From positions 2,190,001-2,254,000 of the forward strand of contig NZ_CP060697.1 of the NCBI RefSeq assembly GCF_014352855.1: a stretch of DNA of 64,000 nucleotides. The letters are read 5' to 3'. Origin of the DNA: Sphingomonas sabuli (GTDB lineage Bacteria > Pseudomonadota > Alphaproteobacteria > Sphingomonadales > Sphingomonadaceae). Both the position numbers and the translations under genes were made by a program. Below, one piece after another: positions 25,480 to 42,187 of this stretch (positions within the stretch are counted from its first letter, which is position 1; each line of letters starts with the position of its first letter). The notes beneath the pieces were generated by a model that worked only from the letters and a program-made list of their open reading frames with translations, was not told where the DNA came from and searched no databases.

Positions 25480-25504
25480 AACGAGGCCCTGTGTTCGGTG
25501 TTCC
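25480..25504 (-). promoter_or_regulatory. EcfG-type (general stress) promoter of the lipoprotein gene
   Basis: On the minus strand GGAAC-N16-CGTT, an exact match to the alphaproteobacterial general-stress promoter. A transcript starting near 25472 would have a leader of about 22 nt before ATG 25449. Confidence 0.65.
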
Positions 25505-36785: not shown

Positions 36786-37187
36786 ATGTTCGGCGTCGAT
36801 TCCACTGAACTGATCATCATCGCCGTGGCGGCGCTGATCTTCATCGGTCCCAAGGACCTGCCCGCAGCGATGCGGACCGTCGGGCGCTGGGTGGGCAAGG
36901 TGCGGGGGATGGCGCGCCATTTCCATTCGAGCGTCGAAGCGATGATGCGCGAAGCCGAGCTCGAGGAAATGGAAAAGCAGTGGCGCGCGGAGAACGAGCG
37001 CATCATGCGCGAATATCCGATGGTCGAGCAGGGGAGCTCGCAAGCGGAGGCGGGCGGTGACCCGATGCTGCCGCTTGGCCAGCCCGACGAGCGGCCGCCC
37101 ATGCTGGACAATCCCGACGAGCCGCCGCTGCCGCTTGACGATACGCCGCCGGCTCCGCGGTCGCGCGATACGACGGAATTGCCGTGA
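36786..37187 (+). CDS. tatB: Sec-independent protein translocase subunit TatB
   Basis: A 133-residue protein starting MFGVDSTELIIIAVAALIFIG with the TatB Glu and GPKDLPAAMR hinge, then a long charged amphipathic helix and a Pro/Asp-rich tail. It partners TatC in signal-peptide recognition. The stop overlaps the tatC GTG. Confidence 0.94.
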   Translation: MFGVDSTELIIIAVAALIFIGPKDLPAAMRTVGRWVGKVRGMARHFHSSVEAMMREAELEEMEKQWRAENERIMREYPMVEQGSSQAEAGGDPMLPLGQPDERPPMLDNPDEPPLPLDDTPPAPRSRDTTELP

Positions 37188-37957
37188 AGGACATCGACGA
37201 CAGCAAGGCGCCGCTGCTCGAACATCTGACCGAGCTTCGCCGGCGGATGCTCCTATCGCTGGCGGTGCTGGCAACCTTGTTTTTCGCCTGCCTCTATTTC
37301 GCCAAGCCGATCTTCGGATTCCTGGTCCAGCCGCTGCTTGCGGCCGGGCAGGGCAAGCTCATCTATACCGATATCTTCGAAGCCTTTTTCGTCGAGGTGA
37401 AGGTGGCGCTGTTCGCCGCGCTGATGCTCGGCTTTCCCTTTTTCGCCACGCAGATGTGGAAATTCGTCGCGCCGGGCCTTTATGCGAAGGAAAAGAAGGC
37501 GCTGCTGCCGTTCCTGCTGCTGACGCCGGTATTCTTCATCGGCGGCGCGGCGTTCGCTTATTACGTCGCGATGCCCTGGGCGCTGCACTTCCTGCTCAGC
37601 TTCCAGGGGGAGGTCGGCGGCGTGGAGCGCGAAGCGCTGCCCGCGATCGGCAATTATCTCAGCTTCGCGACCCGCTTCCTGTTCGGCTTCGGAGTGGCGT
37701 TCCTGCTGCCGATCCTGTTGATGATCCTGGAACGCGCCGGATTGATTACCCTGCAGCAGCTGACCAAGTCGCGGCGCTATGCGATTGTCGGGGCAGTGGC
37801 GATTGCGGCGGTGCTGACGCCGCCCGATGCGGTGTCGCAGATCCTGCTCGCGACCCCACTCTACCTGCTTTACGAATTCGCGATCATCGCCATTCGGCTG
37901 ACGCATTGGCGGGCCGCGCGCCGGGCGGGCGTTTCGGAAGCCGAAGCTGAAAGCTGA
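37184..37957 (+). CDS. tatC: Sec-independent protein translocase subunit TatC
   Basis: A 257-residue six-helix membrane protein that binds twin-arginine signal peptides. LLEHLTELRRRM at the N-terminus, FFVEVKVALFAALMLGFPF and TPPDAVSQILLATPLYLLYE near the end are conserved. It starts with GTG overlapping tatB. A hairpin on the far side of its stop serves mainly the minus strand. Confidence 0.95.
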   Translation: MKDIDDSKAPLLEHLTELRRRMLLSLAVLATLFFACLYFAKPIFGFLVQPLLAAGQGKLIYTDIFEAFFVEVKVALFAALMLGFPFFATQMWKFVAPGLYAKEKKALLPFLLLTPVFFIGGAAFAYYVAMPWALHFLLSFQGEVGGVEREALPAIGNYLSFATRFLFGFGVAFLLPILLMILERAGLITLQQLTKSRRYAIVGAVAIAAVLTPPDAVSQILLATPLYLLYEFAIIAIRLTHWRAARRAGVSEAEAES

Positions 37958-38058
37958 AAAAATGCGGGCCCGGAAGCGCCACCGGGGGGGGAGGGTTGGC
38001 GGTTCCGGGCCCATTTAAGCGGATAGCGAGAGCGGGGGGGCAAAAGGTCACTATCCGA
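37955..38058 (-). ncRNA. Predicted EcfG-dependent small RNA with two C-rich loops
   Basis: An EcfG promoter match ends at 38066 on the minus strand, so a transcript would begin near 38058. Its 5' end folds into a 10-bp stem (38048-38057 with 38020-38029, one wobble pair) around an 18-nt loop containing seven C. A second stem (37998-38012 with 37966-37980, 15 bp with one mismatch) has a 17-nt loop with CCCTCCCCCCCC, and is followed by T6. This is a complete promoter-hairpin-terminator unit of about 100 nt with no reading frame. The prediction rests on sequence alone. Confidence 0.55.
37957..38012 (-). terminator. Rho-independent terminator of the predicted sRNA
   Basis: A 15-bp GC-rich stem with one mismatch, then GCA and six T on the minus strand. 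On the plus strand the hairpin lies 8 nt after tatC and could also slow polymerase there, but lacks a T run. Confidence 0.75.
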
Positions 38059-38065
38059 ACTGCTT

Positions 38066-38091
38066 AACGCACCTGCTTTTGGGGCGGTTCC
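38066..38091 (-). promoter_or_regulatory. EcfG-type promoter of the predicted sRNA
   Basis: On the minus strand GGAAC-N17-CGTT. It points away from the PhyP-like gene and toward tatC, where no minus-strand gene exists. Confidence 0.6.
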
Positions 38092-38132: not shown

Positions 38133-39665
38133 CTAACGAGGCGGGAATACGGGCAGATCGACACTGTAGCGGCCAAGCTTCCGTTCGAGCGTCGAGCGGA
38201 GCTGTTTGGCCAGACCGGCGATAATCCGCTCGAACTGCTCTTTTTCCCGGTCGTCGGTCTTGTCGGGCACCAGCACGGGGCTGGCCATGGTCAGCCGAGC
38301 GGTGATCTCGCTGGTCCGCTGGACGGTGATCTCCACCGGCTCGTCGGGTCGCCGAAGCATGGCGAACTCGACCACCTCGGTGATCAGAAAGGCGGCGCTG
38401 ACGGCCACGTCCTGGGTCGTATGCAGCGGCTCGACCTCCAGGTCGATCGCCAGCTTGCGCGCGGCTTCCGGAGCGGTGGCGCGAAGCTCCGCGGCCAGTT
38501 CGGACATCAGGGGGCGCAACGAAAGCCCGCGGCTTTCCTCCATTTCCGCATAATGATTGCGGTGGACGATTGCCAACGCACCGACCCGGCGCCCGATCGC
38601 TCCATAGGCAGCGCGCGCCTCGGGCGTTTCCGCGGTGCGGCCGTGAATGCTCAGCAGGGACGCGATCACCTGCAGGTTGTTCTTCACCCGGTGGTGAACT
38701 TCGCGGACCAGCCGGCGCTGCCCGTCCAGCGCCGCGGTCATGTCGGTTTCCGATTCCTGGACGCGGGTCATCGCCCGGGCGAACGCGTCCCTGAGCGACT
38801 GGATCTCGGTCGCGGGACCAAGCTTCGTCGGCAGGTCGGCCGCCGGTTCGCCCGGTTCGTACAGCGACACGGCGCGCTGCAGCCGGCGAAGCGGCTGGAT
38901 CAACAGTCGGTGGACCATCAGCCAGGTCATCAGCGCCGCGATGAACCACATCACCATCGGCAGCAGGATGAGCAATTTGTCGACAACGTTGACCTCGGGC
39001 ACGCTCCCCTGGACCTCAGCGACCAGCCGCCCGTTGCCGATCGGCAGCCGCGACATGGACGGCCGTTGCCCCGACGGGGTCGGCTCCATCGGCATGACTT
39101 CCATTTCACGCTCGCGGTCGCGGATGATCATCCCGTCGACACCGCGAGTGCCGGCGAGCGCGGCGGCGCGCAATTCCTCGCTGCGGATCAGCGAGGTGAC
39201 GATTCCGCCGACGACGCCTTCGTGCAGGATGATCGCATTTTCGCTGGGCGCGACCCGCAGCGTGATCGCGCCGGGTGCGATGGGTGGCAGCTCGCCAATG
39301 TCGTCGAGCGTGCCGACGCTACACATTTCCGTGCCGTCTTCGCGCTGCAGCCGGAATTGCTGGACGACCGCCGGTGCAATGCTCAGCGAGCGGCGGATCC
39401 GGTCGCACGGCTCGGACAGGTCGAGCCGGCCGTTGGCCGCGATCCTTAGCGCGAGTGCGTTACGGGCGAGCAGGCTTTCGACGCCGCGGGTCGCGGTCCG
39501 CGCCCGTTCGTGGGATTGGGATTCAAGCGCGTCGTTCGCGTCCTTGAGGCCACTATAGGCGACCGCGCCGAGGCCAAAGCCGATCGGCAGCAACGCGGCC
39601 GTCAGGATCAGCAGCAGCTTGGCAGGTGTGGATAATTCCGAGAATCGTTCGGCTGCCGACGGCAC
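38133..39665 (-). CDS. phyP: PhyP-like membrane HisKA_2 protein with degenerate ATPase domain
   Basis: A 510-residue membrane protein: helices at about 16-38 and 236-260 flank a periplasmic sensor domain, then a HAMP-like linker and HisKA_2 box REVHHRVKNNLQVIASLLSIHGR with the phospho-accepting His near 325. In the ATPase domain the essential Asn is missing (LITEVVEFAML instead of the NEL..NA pattern) and no DxG box is seen. Kinase activity is therefore unlikely. Sphingomonas PhyP, a negative regulator of PhyR encoded beside it, has this character. GTG 39665 has GGAGG 8 nt upstream. It follows nepR by 25 nt. Confidence 0.75.
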   Translation of the reverse strand: MPSAAERFSELSTPAKLLLILTAALLPIGFGLGAVAYSGLKDANDALESQSHERARTATRGVESLLARNALALRIAANGRLDLSEPCDRIRRSLSIAPAVVQQFRLQREDGTEMCSVGTLDDIGELPPIAPGAITLRVAPSENAIILHEGVVGGIVTSLIRSEELRAAALAGTRGVDGMIIRDREREMEVMPMEPTPSGQRPSMSRLPIGNGRLVAEVQGSVPEVNVVDKLLILLPMVMWFIAALMTWLMVHRLLIQPLRRLQRAVSLYEPGEPAADLPTKLGPATEIQSLRDAFARAMTRVQESETDMTAALDGQRRLVREVHHRVKNNLQVIASLLSIHGRTAETPEARAAYGAIGRRVGALAIVHRNHYAEMEESRGLSLRPLMSELAAELRATAPEAARKLAIDLEVEPLHTTQDVAVSAAFLITEVVEFAMLRRPDEPVEITVQRTSEITARLTMASPVLVPDKTDDREKEQFERIIAGLAKQLRSTLERKLGRYSVDLPVFPPR

Positions 39666-39690: not shown

Positions 39691-39915
39691 TCAGCTAAGC
39701 TTGCCGAGCAAATCGAGGAAATCGTCGGGAACGTCTTCGCGCAAGGTCTCGTCGTAAACCGTGCGCAGGGCACGGCCAACGCTGCTGACTCGCCCGCCGC
39801 TCTTGTCGGCTCGCTTGCCACCATCGTCCTTTTTCTCGCGCTTCGTCTTGGCGCTCTTCTCGTCGCCCAATTTGTCACTCAATCTGTTCTGTCCCCCAGC
39901 GGGCGCTGGCGCCAC
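39691..39915 (-). CDS. nepR: Anti-sigma factor NepR
   Basis: A 74-residue protein whose C-terminal half, GRALRTVYDETLREDVPDDF followed by LDLLGKL, is the NepR core that sequesters EcfG and is bound by phosphorylated PhyR. The N-terminal half is charged and disordered-looking. The start is GTG 39915, or possibly an internal TTG at 39882 with a G-rich motif before it. It is divergent from phyR and cotranscribed with the PhyP-like gene. An EcfG promoter lies upstream, giving autoregulation. Confidence 0.85.
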   Translation of the reverse strand: MAPAPAGGQNRLSDKLGDEKSAKTKREKKDDGGKRADKSGGRVSSVGRALRTVYDETLREDVPDDFLDLLGKLS

Positions 39916-40038: not shown

Positions 40039-40063
40039 AACCAAATGGCCGGTGCTTTGTTCC
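40039..40063 (-). promoter_or_regulatory. EcfG-type promoter of nepR
   Basis: On the minus strand GGAAC-N16-GGTT, one base off the CGTT consensus. It lies about 120 bp before nepR, in the 270-bp divergent region with phyR (39916-40185). No plus-strand EcfG match for phyR was seen there. Confidence 0.55.
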
Positions 40064-40185: not shown

Positions 40186-40983
40186 ATGTCGCTTGGTCAG
40201 GAACTCGCCCCACATCTGCCTTTCCTGCGCCGCTATGCGCGCGCCTTGACCGGCAGCCAGGCGCACGGCGACGCCTTCGTCCGCGCGACGCTCGAAGCGA
40301 TCGTTGCCGAGCCGGATGAATTTCCGCGCGACGTCGATGCCCGGCTTGGCCTGTACCGCACCTTCCACGCCATCTGGTCCACCGCCAACGTCGAAGAGGG
40401 CGAGGAACCGAGCGACAGCATCGCCGGAGCTGAAGGCATTGCCCACGCCCGCCTGTCGAAGATCACGCCGCTGTCGCGCCAGGCGCTTCTGCTGACGTCG
40501 CTGGAAGGCTTTTCGTCCGACGACGCGGCCTATCTTATCGGCGCCAGCGCTGAAGACGTCGATTCGCTGGTGTCCGAAGCGCTTCAGGAAATCGAGCGCC
40601 AGACGCTGACTGACGTCCTCATCATCGAGGACGAGCCGATCATCGCGATGGACATCGAAACCATCGTCCGCGACCTTGGCCACAACGTCACCGGCGTTGC
40701 GGTCACCCGCGACGAAGCGGTCGCCGCCGCGCGCCAGAGCCCGCCGGGCCTGGTGCTTGCGGACATCCAGCTGGCCGACGATTCCAGCGGCATCGACGCG
40801 GTCAAGGATATCCTCGCCGAATTCTCCGTGCCGGTGATTTTCATCACTGCCTTCCCGGAACGCCTCTTGACCGGGACTCGCCCCGAACCCACCTTCCTGA
40901 TCACCAAGCCGTTCCAGCGGTCGACCGTTAAGGCGGCGATCGCCCAAGCGTTGTTCTTCGACGCCGCGACGGTCCCGGCCTGA
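40186..40983 (+). CDS. phyR: General stress response regulator PhyR
   Basis: A 265-residue response regulator. The N-terminal sigma-like domain (about 1-130, LPFLRRYARALTGSQ...SRQALLLTSLEGFSSDDAAYL) mimics EcfG and binds NepR; the C-terminal receiver has DEPII and the phospho-acceptor Asp193 in LADIQLA, then a Lys in FLITKPF. I chose ATG 40186, with GGAGA 10 nt upstream, over a longer frame. Phosphorylation frees the sigma-like domain to take NepR off EcfG (partner switching). Confidence 0.95.
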   Translation: MSLGQELAPHLPFLRRYARALTGSQAHGDAFVRATLEAIVAEPDEFPRDVDARLGLYRTFHAIWSTANVEEGEEPSDSIAGAEGIAHARLSKITPLSRQALLLTSLEGFSSDDAAYLIGASAEDVDSLVSEALQEIERQTLTDVLIIEDEPIIAMDIETIVRDLGHNVTGVAVTRDEAVAAARQSPPGLVLADIQLADDSSGIDAVKDILAEFSVPVIFITAFPERLLTGTRPEPTFLITKPFQRSTVKAAIAQALFFDAATVPA

Positions 40984-41000: not shown

Positions 41001-41026
41001 GGAACTAGTGTCAGACACGCGGCGTT
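41001..41026 (+). promoter_or_regulatory. EcfG-type promoter before the small membrane protein and ecfG
   Basis: GGAAC-N17-CGTT starts 18 bp after the phyR stop. A transcript from about 41034 would carry the 47-residue gene and probably read on into ecfG, giving positive feedback. Confidence 0.6.
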
Positions 41027-41060
41027 GGCGGCCGAACGAAGGGATTTGAGCGGAAAAGCG

Positions 41061-41204
41061 ATGAAGGACGATCATTCAGAACATCTGACGACCACCGAAG
41101 CGCGTGGCGGCACCAACCAGCATATGGGCCGCGTCGTGCTGTTCGTCGGAACCGGCCTGGTCGTCGTCATCTTCGCCGTGCTGTTTTTCGTCGGATCGTT
41201 GTGA
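41061..41204 (+). CDS. 47-residue single-pass membrane protein between phyR and ecfG
   Basis: Encodes MKDDHSEHLTTTEAR, a short linker and one transmembrane helix (about residues 24-46, VLFVGTGLVVVIFAVLFFVG). GGAAAAGCG precedes the ATG. Too small for usual gene callers. No family recognised. Position inside the stress locus and the EcfG promoter upstream suggest a stress-induced membrane peptide. Confidence 0.65.
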   Translation: MKDDHSEHLTTTEARGGTNQHMGRVVLFVGTGLVVVIFAVLFFVGSL

Positions 41205-41301: not shown

Positions 41302-41937
41302 ATGGCGGCAGATAACGATCAGCAGACGGCAATGCCGCAGGGCGAACCGGTCCCGCTATCCGATCCGGAATTCAAGGATCAGCTGGCGGCCGTCATTCCG
41401 CACCTGCGCGCGTTCGGCCGGTCGCTGTCCGGCAGCCGGGACCTTGCCGACGACCTTGTCCAGGAAACGCTGCTCAAGGCATGGGCGGCGCGCAAGCGCT
41501 TCCAGGCCGGCACGAACATGCGCGCCTGGACCTTCATCATCCTGCGCAACCTGTTCCTCAGCCAGATGCGGCGCGCCCGCTTCAAGGGCGAATGGGACGA
41601 GCTTACCGCGTCCAAGATCCTCGCCGCGCCGGCCAGCCAGGACCGGCACATCGAACTGGCCGACATGCAGCGTGCGCTAATGCATCTGCCGCAGCCGCAG
41701 CGCGAGGCGTTGATCCTCGTCGGCGCCGGTGGTTTCGCTTACGAGGAAGCGGCGGAAATCTGCGGGTGCGCCGTGGGCACGATCAAGAGCCGCGTGGCGC
41801 GTGGGCGCGTCGCGCTTGAGGCGTTGCTGTCGAGCGGCAAGCTGCCGTCGCGGCGCCAGCACAAGCAGGATCCGAACAAGTCCGCGCTGCAGACCATCAT
41901 GGGCGAAGTGGACGACCTCAGCCGCGATATGGGGTGA
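41302..41937 (+). CDS. ecfG: ECF sigma factor EcfG (general stress response)
   Basis: A 211-residue ECF15-type sigma factor. Region 2 (about 30-95) contains SRDLADDLVQETLLKAWAARKRF and MRAWTFIILRNLFLSQMRR; region 4 (about 118-172) contains LPQPQREALILVGAGGFAYEEAA and GTIKSRVARGR. The last 35 residues are a polar tail. It directs transcription from GGAAC/CGTT promoters and is held by NepR. It is convergent with a second NepR-like gene. Confidence 0.94.
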   Translation: MAADNDQQTAMPQGEPVPLSDPEFKDQLAAVIPHLRAFGRSLSGSRDLADDLVQETLLKAWAARKRFQAGTNMRAWTFIILRNLFLSQMRRARFKGEWDELTASKILAAPASQDRHIELADMQRALMHLPQPQREALILVGAGGFAYEEAAEICGCAVGTIKSRVARGRVALEALLSSGKLPSRRQHKQDPNKSALQTIMGEVDDLSRDMG

Positions 41938-42161: not shown

Positions 42162-42187
42162 AACGACATCGCCGCTGTTTAGGTTCC
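42162..42187 (-). promoter_or_regulatory. EcfG-type promoter of the NepR-like gene
   Basis: On the minus strand GGAAC-N17-CGTT. The box lies so close to the gene that only the start at 42133, or leaderless use of 42151, fits it. Confidence 0.5.

Follow-up and report, generated by a model that had tools for sequence, protein, structure and literature searches.

A conserved, predicted EcfG-dependent small RNA with a C-rich loop beside the general stress response genes of Sphingomonadaceae

The window analysed here, a stretch of 64,000 nucleotides from Sphingomonas sabuli (contig NZ_CP060697.1, positions 2,190,001 to 2,254,000), contains the general stress response (GSR) genes nepR, phyP, phyR and ecfG, all within 4 kb of the predicted small RNA (sRNA) described below (Table 1). 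The tatA, tatB and tatC genes are all on the plus strand, and nepR and phyP, on the minus strand, run towards the RNA. In Sphingomonas melonis Fr1, PhyP now goes by the name PhyT (PMC6599016). On the minus strand between 37955 and 38091, where an earlier note on this DNA had placed them, lie an EcfG-type promoter, two hairpins, two C-rich loops and a run of six T. The promoter starts 42 nt beyond the phyP stop codon and the RNA would start about 75 nt beyond it; since phyP has ended by then and the next gene, tatC, is convergent and would be entered from its 3′ end, the promoter has no other gene to serve, as the note had also held.

Table 1. Features at the locus, numbered from the first letter of the window
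Feature	Position	Strand	Basis
EcfG-type promoter, GGAAC-N17-CGTT read from 38091 to 38066	38066..38091	-	motif; 116 of 118 loop-1-chosen loci among the matches listed, against 1 of 661 controls
Predicted sRNA, about 104 nt, ends predicted	37955..38058	-	fold z-score, block conserved in 30 genus loci, covariation
5′ hairpin, 10 bp	38020..38057	-	all 10 pairs with one or more double changes in alignment A3
Loop 1, CCTTTTGCCCCCCCGCTC, core GCCCCCCCGCTC nearly invariant	38030..38047	-	alignment column counts
Linker, unpaired, A/T-rich here, varies in relatives	38013..38019	-	fold, alignment columns
3′ hairpin, terminator-like, strongly covarying	37966..38012	-	one or more double changes in 17 of 17 pairs
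Loop 2, AACCCTCCCCCCCC, C-rich, length varies	37984..37997	-	alignments
T6 tail	37957..37962	-	sequence; weak or absent in several relatives
phyP/phyT, HWE-type histidine kinase	38133..39665	-	Pfam HisKA_2/HWE_HK; upstream of the RNA, same strand
nepR, anti-sigma factor, TTG start assumed, candidate target	39694..39882	-	PF18557
G5 run, presumed nepR ribosome-binding site, complementary to both loops	39893..39897	-	sequence, duplex energy
tatC, convergent neighbour	37184..37957	+	Pfam TatC
phyR	40186..40983	+	Pfam PhyR_sigma2, Response_reg
ecfG	41302..41937	+	Pfam Sigma70_r2/r4_2

The 5′ stem, ten base pairs with one G·U pair among them, begins 7 nt past the CGTT of the promoter and joins 38048–38057 to 38020–38029, closing a loop of 18 nt. 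The 3′ hairpin spans 47 nt and is built of 10+5+2 pairs around a mismatch and a bulge, with the second C-rich run in and beside its loop and the T6 tail after it. The predicted fold energy of the 104-nt RNA is −47.1 kcal/mol compared with −29.2 ± 3.1 kcal/mol for 200 shuffled sequences (z = −5.8). The promoter motif on its own is weak evidence, since three matches occur in the window where 0.59 are expected; chance is excluded by the comparative data given below. Within the S. sabuli genome, the promoter followed by N10–40 and C6 is found at one place only (two overlapping matches).

The window holds further EcfG-like sites. GGAAC-N16-GGTT at 40039–40063 (minus strand), 181 nt upstream of the assumed nepR start, suggests that nepR–phyP may itself be under EcfG and carry a long leader. 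A second EcfG-type promoter, GGAAC-N17-CGTT at 42187–42162 (minus strand), precedes a 58-amino-acid open reading frame (42151–41975) whose C-terminus looks NepR-like by eye and for which Pfam gives no NepR call even at a loose threshold. On the plus strand (window 41001–41204), an EcfG-type promoter is followed by a 47-amino-acid frame (41061–41204), membrane-like by eye and with a best Pfam match of E 0.069, below that family's cut-off, and then by ecfG. Lastly, GGAAC-N16-CGTT at 25480–25504 (minus strand) stands before a frame with a lipoprotein-like start by eye, a candidate GSR-controlled lipoprotein.

The 201-nt region around the element is found at E < 1e-20 in 34 of 36 genomes of the same genus, the two without a match (G005 and G026) being 77 and 79% complete, and the matching stretches are centred on the predicted RNA. 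No match at E 0.001 or better was obtained in 24 genomes from other families of the order. An alignment of 30 genus loci shows that the promoter boxes are kept and the spacer is not, with a mean column identity of 93% over the RNA. A covariance model built from these 30 loci (R1) has matches in 134 of 397 genomes of the family, spread over 35 of 96 genera; this is an undercount, because two model-negative genomes, G083 and G072, nevertheless carry the RNA. A further model (R2) matched 85 of 296 genomes of the order and 2 of 385 genomes of the class, every one of them in the same family. Since both scans scored only 10 to 14 candidates per genome, absence from them is weak evidence.

Among 28 model-negative genomes searched downstream of tatC (900 nt in each, about 200 in one), a diverged copy was found in one, G083, in which the EcfG-type site and the two C-rich loops are kept and the stems are of different sequence. 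A phyR match was present in 24 of the 28, and among 20 of these fetched around phyR the RNA was seen in one (G072). Judged by eye, the nepR sequence is of a different type in 14 of the 18 genes taken from model-negative genomes. The authors of the GsrN study remark that no gsrN-like gene is apparent in Erythrobacter litoralis (PMC5869019), with which the model-negative genomes may fit. One of these, at L287, has an EcfG-like GGAAC-N17-GGTT on the minus strand from 7785, beside phyR, followed by a C6 stretch and then by a terminator-like hairpin with a T run, which is possibly another stress sRNA. In G284, a second, diverged copy (L096:4001-4084) has the same loop core, different stems and its own EcfG site, alongside the main copy.

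The association of promoter and RNA was assessed at loci chosen by the loop-1 core alone. Scanning for this core in named genomes returned at least 120 loci, and the 80 matches listed by genus include Sphingomonas, Sphingomicrobium, Stakelama, Sphingosinicella, Allosphingosinicella, Parasphingopyxis and metagenome-assembled genomes. Among the matches listed, 116 of 118 usable distinct upstream regions contain GGAA[CT]-N16/17-NGTT, against 1 of 661 control windows taken 300–1300 nt further up; the strict GGAAC/CGTT form is present in 103 of the 118, and the site stands at one offset from the loop in 112. Gene order is similarly stable: among the matches listed, 108 of 120 loci have phyP on the same strand no more than 800 nt upstream, 3 have it at a different distance and 9 gave no phyP match. 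A convergent tatC is present within 3 kb in 102 of these 120, with no match in 18. The loci come largely from close relatives, and these counts are therefore not independent.

Of 40 family loci, 25 have a promoter with CGTT; by eye, ten more have GGAAC with another base before GTT, and five have neither. Several family loci have no core GSR genes nearby. Six (L062, L065, L071, L072, L078 and L099) have no phyP match within about 4 kb and keep promoter and fold, and in five others (L075, L077, L081, L082 and L101) tatC lies about 2 kb away and the RNA is still there with an EcfG-type site, the −10 element being GGTT in L077 and L081. The RNA is thus not a by-product of its neighbours. Across the class, an EcfG promoter with C6 was found in 50 of 385 genomes and the reversed control gave more (about 70), so there is no general class-wide signal of this pattern. 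Two such sites in model-negative genomes (L393 and L394) were rejected as sRNAs, lying in or before open reading frames.

Covariation was measured in an alignment of 44 members (A3), drawn from the genus (8 of the 30 loci) and the family (36 loci). Of the 40 main family matches it omits L093, L094, L095 and L097 (29.7 to 34.8 bits, no promoter seen) and keeps L096 and L099 (38.6 and 38.4 bits), both with EcfG sites; ten more weak matches were left out, nine of them antisense to a main match. Pairing is formed in 95.6% of cells, and 27 of the 29 pairs show one or more double changes, with both partners altered. Cells with such a double change number 139; shuffling leaves 30.8 ± 4.2, and sliding the partners 13 to 28. 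Fitting A3 to the structure of the model favours pairing; this bias is an unlikely cause of the signal, given the size of the effect and the double changes in six pairs of a MAFFT alignment of the 30 genus loci. All ten pairs of the 5′ stem have compensated changes, the outermost forming in just 21 of 43 sequences. The loop-1 core GCCCCCCCGCUC hardly varies and is more conserved than its own stem, and C7 is present in 28 of 30 sequences from the genus and 35 of 44 from the family. A near-invariant loop core on a covarying stem is characteristic of a functional loop. Several relatives have poor T tails, and termination may therefore not be purely intrinsic. Alignment and covariance search bear out conservation of the promoter, both stems and the C-rich loops in sphingomonad relatives, the absence of which the earlier note had named as a refutation. 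This comparison supports what that note had put forward, an EcfG-promoted sRNA some 100 nt long.

The same observations bear on other explanations of the element. Its 3′ hairpin, placed where two convergent genes end, could stop transcription from either side, so that the whole might be a mere bidirectional terminator between phyP and tatC with a promoter-like sequence beside it by chance. Such a terminator has no need for a promoter conserved in 116 of 118 upstream regions among the matches listed (1 of 661 in controls), nor for a 5′ hairpin with a near-invariant loop on a covarying stem, and the RNA persists at the six loci with no phyP matched nearby and the five with tatC some 2 kb off; we regard this explanation as very unlikely. 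An element of the 3′ untranslated region of the nepR–phyP mRNA, or an sRNA processed from that mRNA, would fit the position shortly downstream of phyP on the same strand in 108 of 120 loci among the matches listed, as well as the EcfG-like site 181 nt upstream of nepR. It accounts poorly for a promoter of the RNA's own, held at one offset in 112 of 118 among the matches listed, and for copies without an adjacent phyP, and is improbable.

That the region encodes a small protein has next to no likelihood: no stop interrupts frame 0 in 29 of 30 genus sequences and 26 of 30 have an ATG, but lengths fall in all three classes modulo 3 (19, 17 and 8 of 44), ATGGGCCC is present in just 11 of 44 family sequences, the C runs differ by single bases and constraint tracks base pairing. 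A further alternative accepts the RNA and has its loops bind a protein instead of mRNA, as a sponge or scaffold. The core GCCCCCCCGCUC and its U-rich flank are indeed conserved beyond what C-richness would need. Against this, we know of no candidate protein, and C-rich loops of several sRNAs, GsrN included, are reported to pair with G-rich mRNA (PMC5869019); we consider protein binding unlikely.

If the loops pair with mRNA, nepR would be a candidate target. At its presumed ribosome-binding site a run of at least four G is present in 20 of 22 genera with the linked arrangement and absent in two; among the tat, scp, phyP, phyR and glnE genes it is seen in 8 of 163, and among 450 internal controls in 12.2%. 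Start codons were picked by anti-Shine-Dalgarno strength, a choice that favours G runs and that the internal control corrects only in part. For ecfG the figure is 11 of 23. Over 117 loci, many from close relatives, the fraction for nepR is 0.94, mostly with TTG or GTG starts. Where nepR is not beside the RNA (on another contig or far away) the run is seen in 3 of 10 genes from nine genomes; it is found in 5 of 18 nepR genes from model-negative genomes and in neither of those of G072 and G083, both of which have the RNA. With fixed loop sequences, mean duplex energies at nepR are −18.2 kcal/mol for loop 1 and −16.4 kcal/mol for loop 2, and those of the other genes range from −10.2 to −13.2 and from −6.9 to −9.6 kcal/mol, respectively. 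On average nepR is the strongest of nine genes, and it ranks first in 11 of 22 loci; just 8 of 22 sites beat the 5th percentile of random windows.

One reading of these data is that the RNA blocks nepR translation, so that an EcfG-driven RNA would lower EcfG's own inhibitor in a positive feedback. We hold it to be doubtful; if true, post-transcriptional feedback would deepen the stress response and add an RNA layer to the partner switch. Elsewhere in the S. sabuli genome, GGGGGGN3-10ATG has 44 matches, some overlapping, compared with 13 for the reversed control, and the frames behind such G-run sites include, by eye, a glucokinase-like one (window 62013), a CtrA-like regulator and several transporter-like ones. 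A ctrA match was obtained in 28 of 30 genomes (L405–L432). At the presumed ctrA ribosome-binding site, a run of at least four G is present in 8 of the 14 genomes that carry the RNA, and all 14 genomes lacking a model match have a run of 4 to 6 G. We rejected ctrA as a target on this distribution, and it follows that G-run ribosome-binding sites alone cannot be read as targets. The earlier note had the RNA repressing many mRNAs through their Shine-Dalgarno sequences; of its interpretation, the sRNA with an EcfG promoter stands, and this repression stays a conjecture: nepR is suggestive in the linked clade, but the ctrA result pointed in the opposite direction and just 8 of 22 nepR sites passed the duplex-energy threshold. 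Repression is also not the only sign possible, because GsrN, which the note leaves unmentioned, activates katG (PMC5869019).

Taken together, the element is likely (probability roughly 0.78) to specify a trans-acting GSR sRNA of Sphingomonadaceae that is transcribed by EcfG, pairs through its C7 loop with G-rich mRNA and serves as a functional counterpart of GsrN. We infer that the RNA is transcribed in cells and in fact depends on EcfG, and likewise its pairing, its targets and whether its effect is positive or negative. EcfG, once freed from NepR, would transcribe the RNA from its own GGAAC/CGTT promoter, and the 3′ hairpin would end transcription. With help from the second C-rich loop, the C7 loop of the 5′ hairpin, which hardly varies, would then pair with G-rich stretches of mRNA, most likely at or near ribosome-binding sites, and alter the translation or stability of these mRNAs. 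Loop pairing appears the likeliest mechanism because the plan of the RNA is shared with GsrN. In this scheme the sphingomonad RNA would do in its family what GsrN does in Caulobacter.

On comparative grounds this is a real RNA family, with a conserved promoter, fold, constrained loop and place, and it is apparently previously undescribed. Very probably it is an EcfG-dependent sRNA of GsrN-like design, its dependence on EcfG being read from the promoter. The note's statement that no sRNA had been described here agrees with our searches: Rfam 15 gave no match at gathering scores in the window or in the loci of nine relatives, the weaker matches in the region itself falling far short of those scores, and no sRNA at this place was found in the literature searched, in which subscription journals are thinly covered, so that a description elsewhere is possible. 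For two transcriptome studies of the sphingomonad GSR, word searches of the main text returned no sRNA terms in PMC6599016 and one in PMC7083833, a reference title on SuhB, with none at this place. Passages of the review PMC8103513 cover RpoE-dependent sRNAs and leave GsrN unmentioned.

The RNA would be a second, structurally well-supported sRNA family for the alphaproteobacterial GSR, in Sphingomonadaceae. To our knowledge, GsrN is the one sRNA of this response that has been studied in depth. Because Sphingomonadaceae include the GSR models Sphingomonas melonis Fr1 and Sphingopyxis granuli TFA, which is not to imply that these strains carry the RNA, its role could be tested soon.

Among known sRNAs, alpha-r14 (RF02344) is likewise alphaproteobacterial and its model has the loop CUCCUCCUCCC; the sphingomonad RNA scores 11.2 bits against a gathering score of 58.8, and membership was rejected. 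SuhB of Sphingopyxis granuli TFA is also an sRNA from a sphingomonad, but is tied to catabolite repression by the title of its report, and is set apart here by description, not by sequence. The closest parallel is GsrN (CCNA_R0081) of Caulobacter crescentus, which activates katG by pairing with the katG leader, is cut near nt 53 to leave a stable 5′ isoform, and depends on Hfq for its full-length form (PMC5869019). The linker at 38013–38019 is, by analogy, a possible candidate for such a processing site. Many of the partner sites predicted for GsrN are rich in G, and one such site is in nepR, whose RNA co-purifies with GsrN in Caulobacter and is predicted to make a GGGGGGCG contact (PMC5869019, Table 1).

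Compared by plan and not by sequence, both RNAs have an EcfG-family (sigma-T) promoter and a length of about 100 nt (PMC5869019), and both have a 5′ hairpin that exposes, by prediction in the sphingomonad RNA, a run of C, of six in GsrN and seven in the sphingomonad RNA. GsrN homologues are typically near ecfG, nepR or phyR, and in the window the sphingomonad RNA likewise has a near-consensus EcfG site directly upstream, core GSR genes close by and, by prediction, an exposed C-rich loop in the 5′ hairpin. Unlike GsrN, it has a second C-rich loop, in the terminator hairpin, and lies between phyP and tatC, in Sphingomonadaceae. In the order and class samples searched, the latter of which may or may not include Caulobacteraceae, all matches to its model were in its own family, and the BLASTn matches published for GsrN are confined to Caulobacteraceae (PMC5869019). 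Putative GsrN homologues of Rhizobiaceae share the EcfG site, closeness to the GSR locus and the C-rich 5′ loop (PMC5869019), and differ in that GSR-dependent expression is reported for some species, whereas the sphingomonad RNA is known from comparison alone. These parallels suggest that the GSR repeatedly includes an RNA of this design, driven by EcfG and bearing a C-rich loop, whether through common descent or through convergence.
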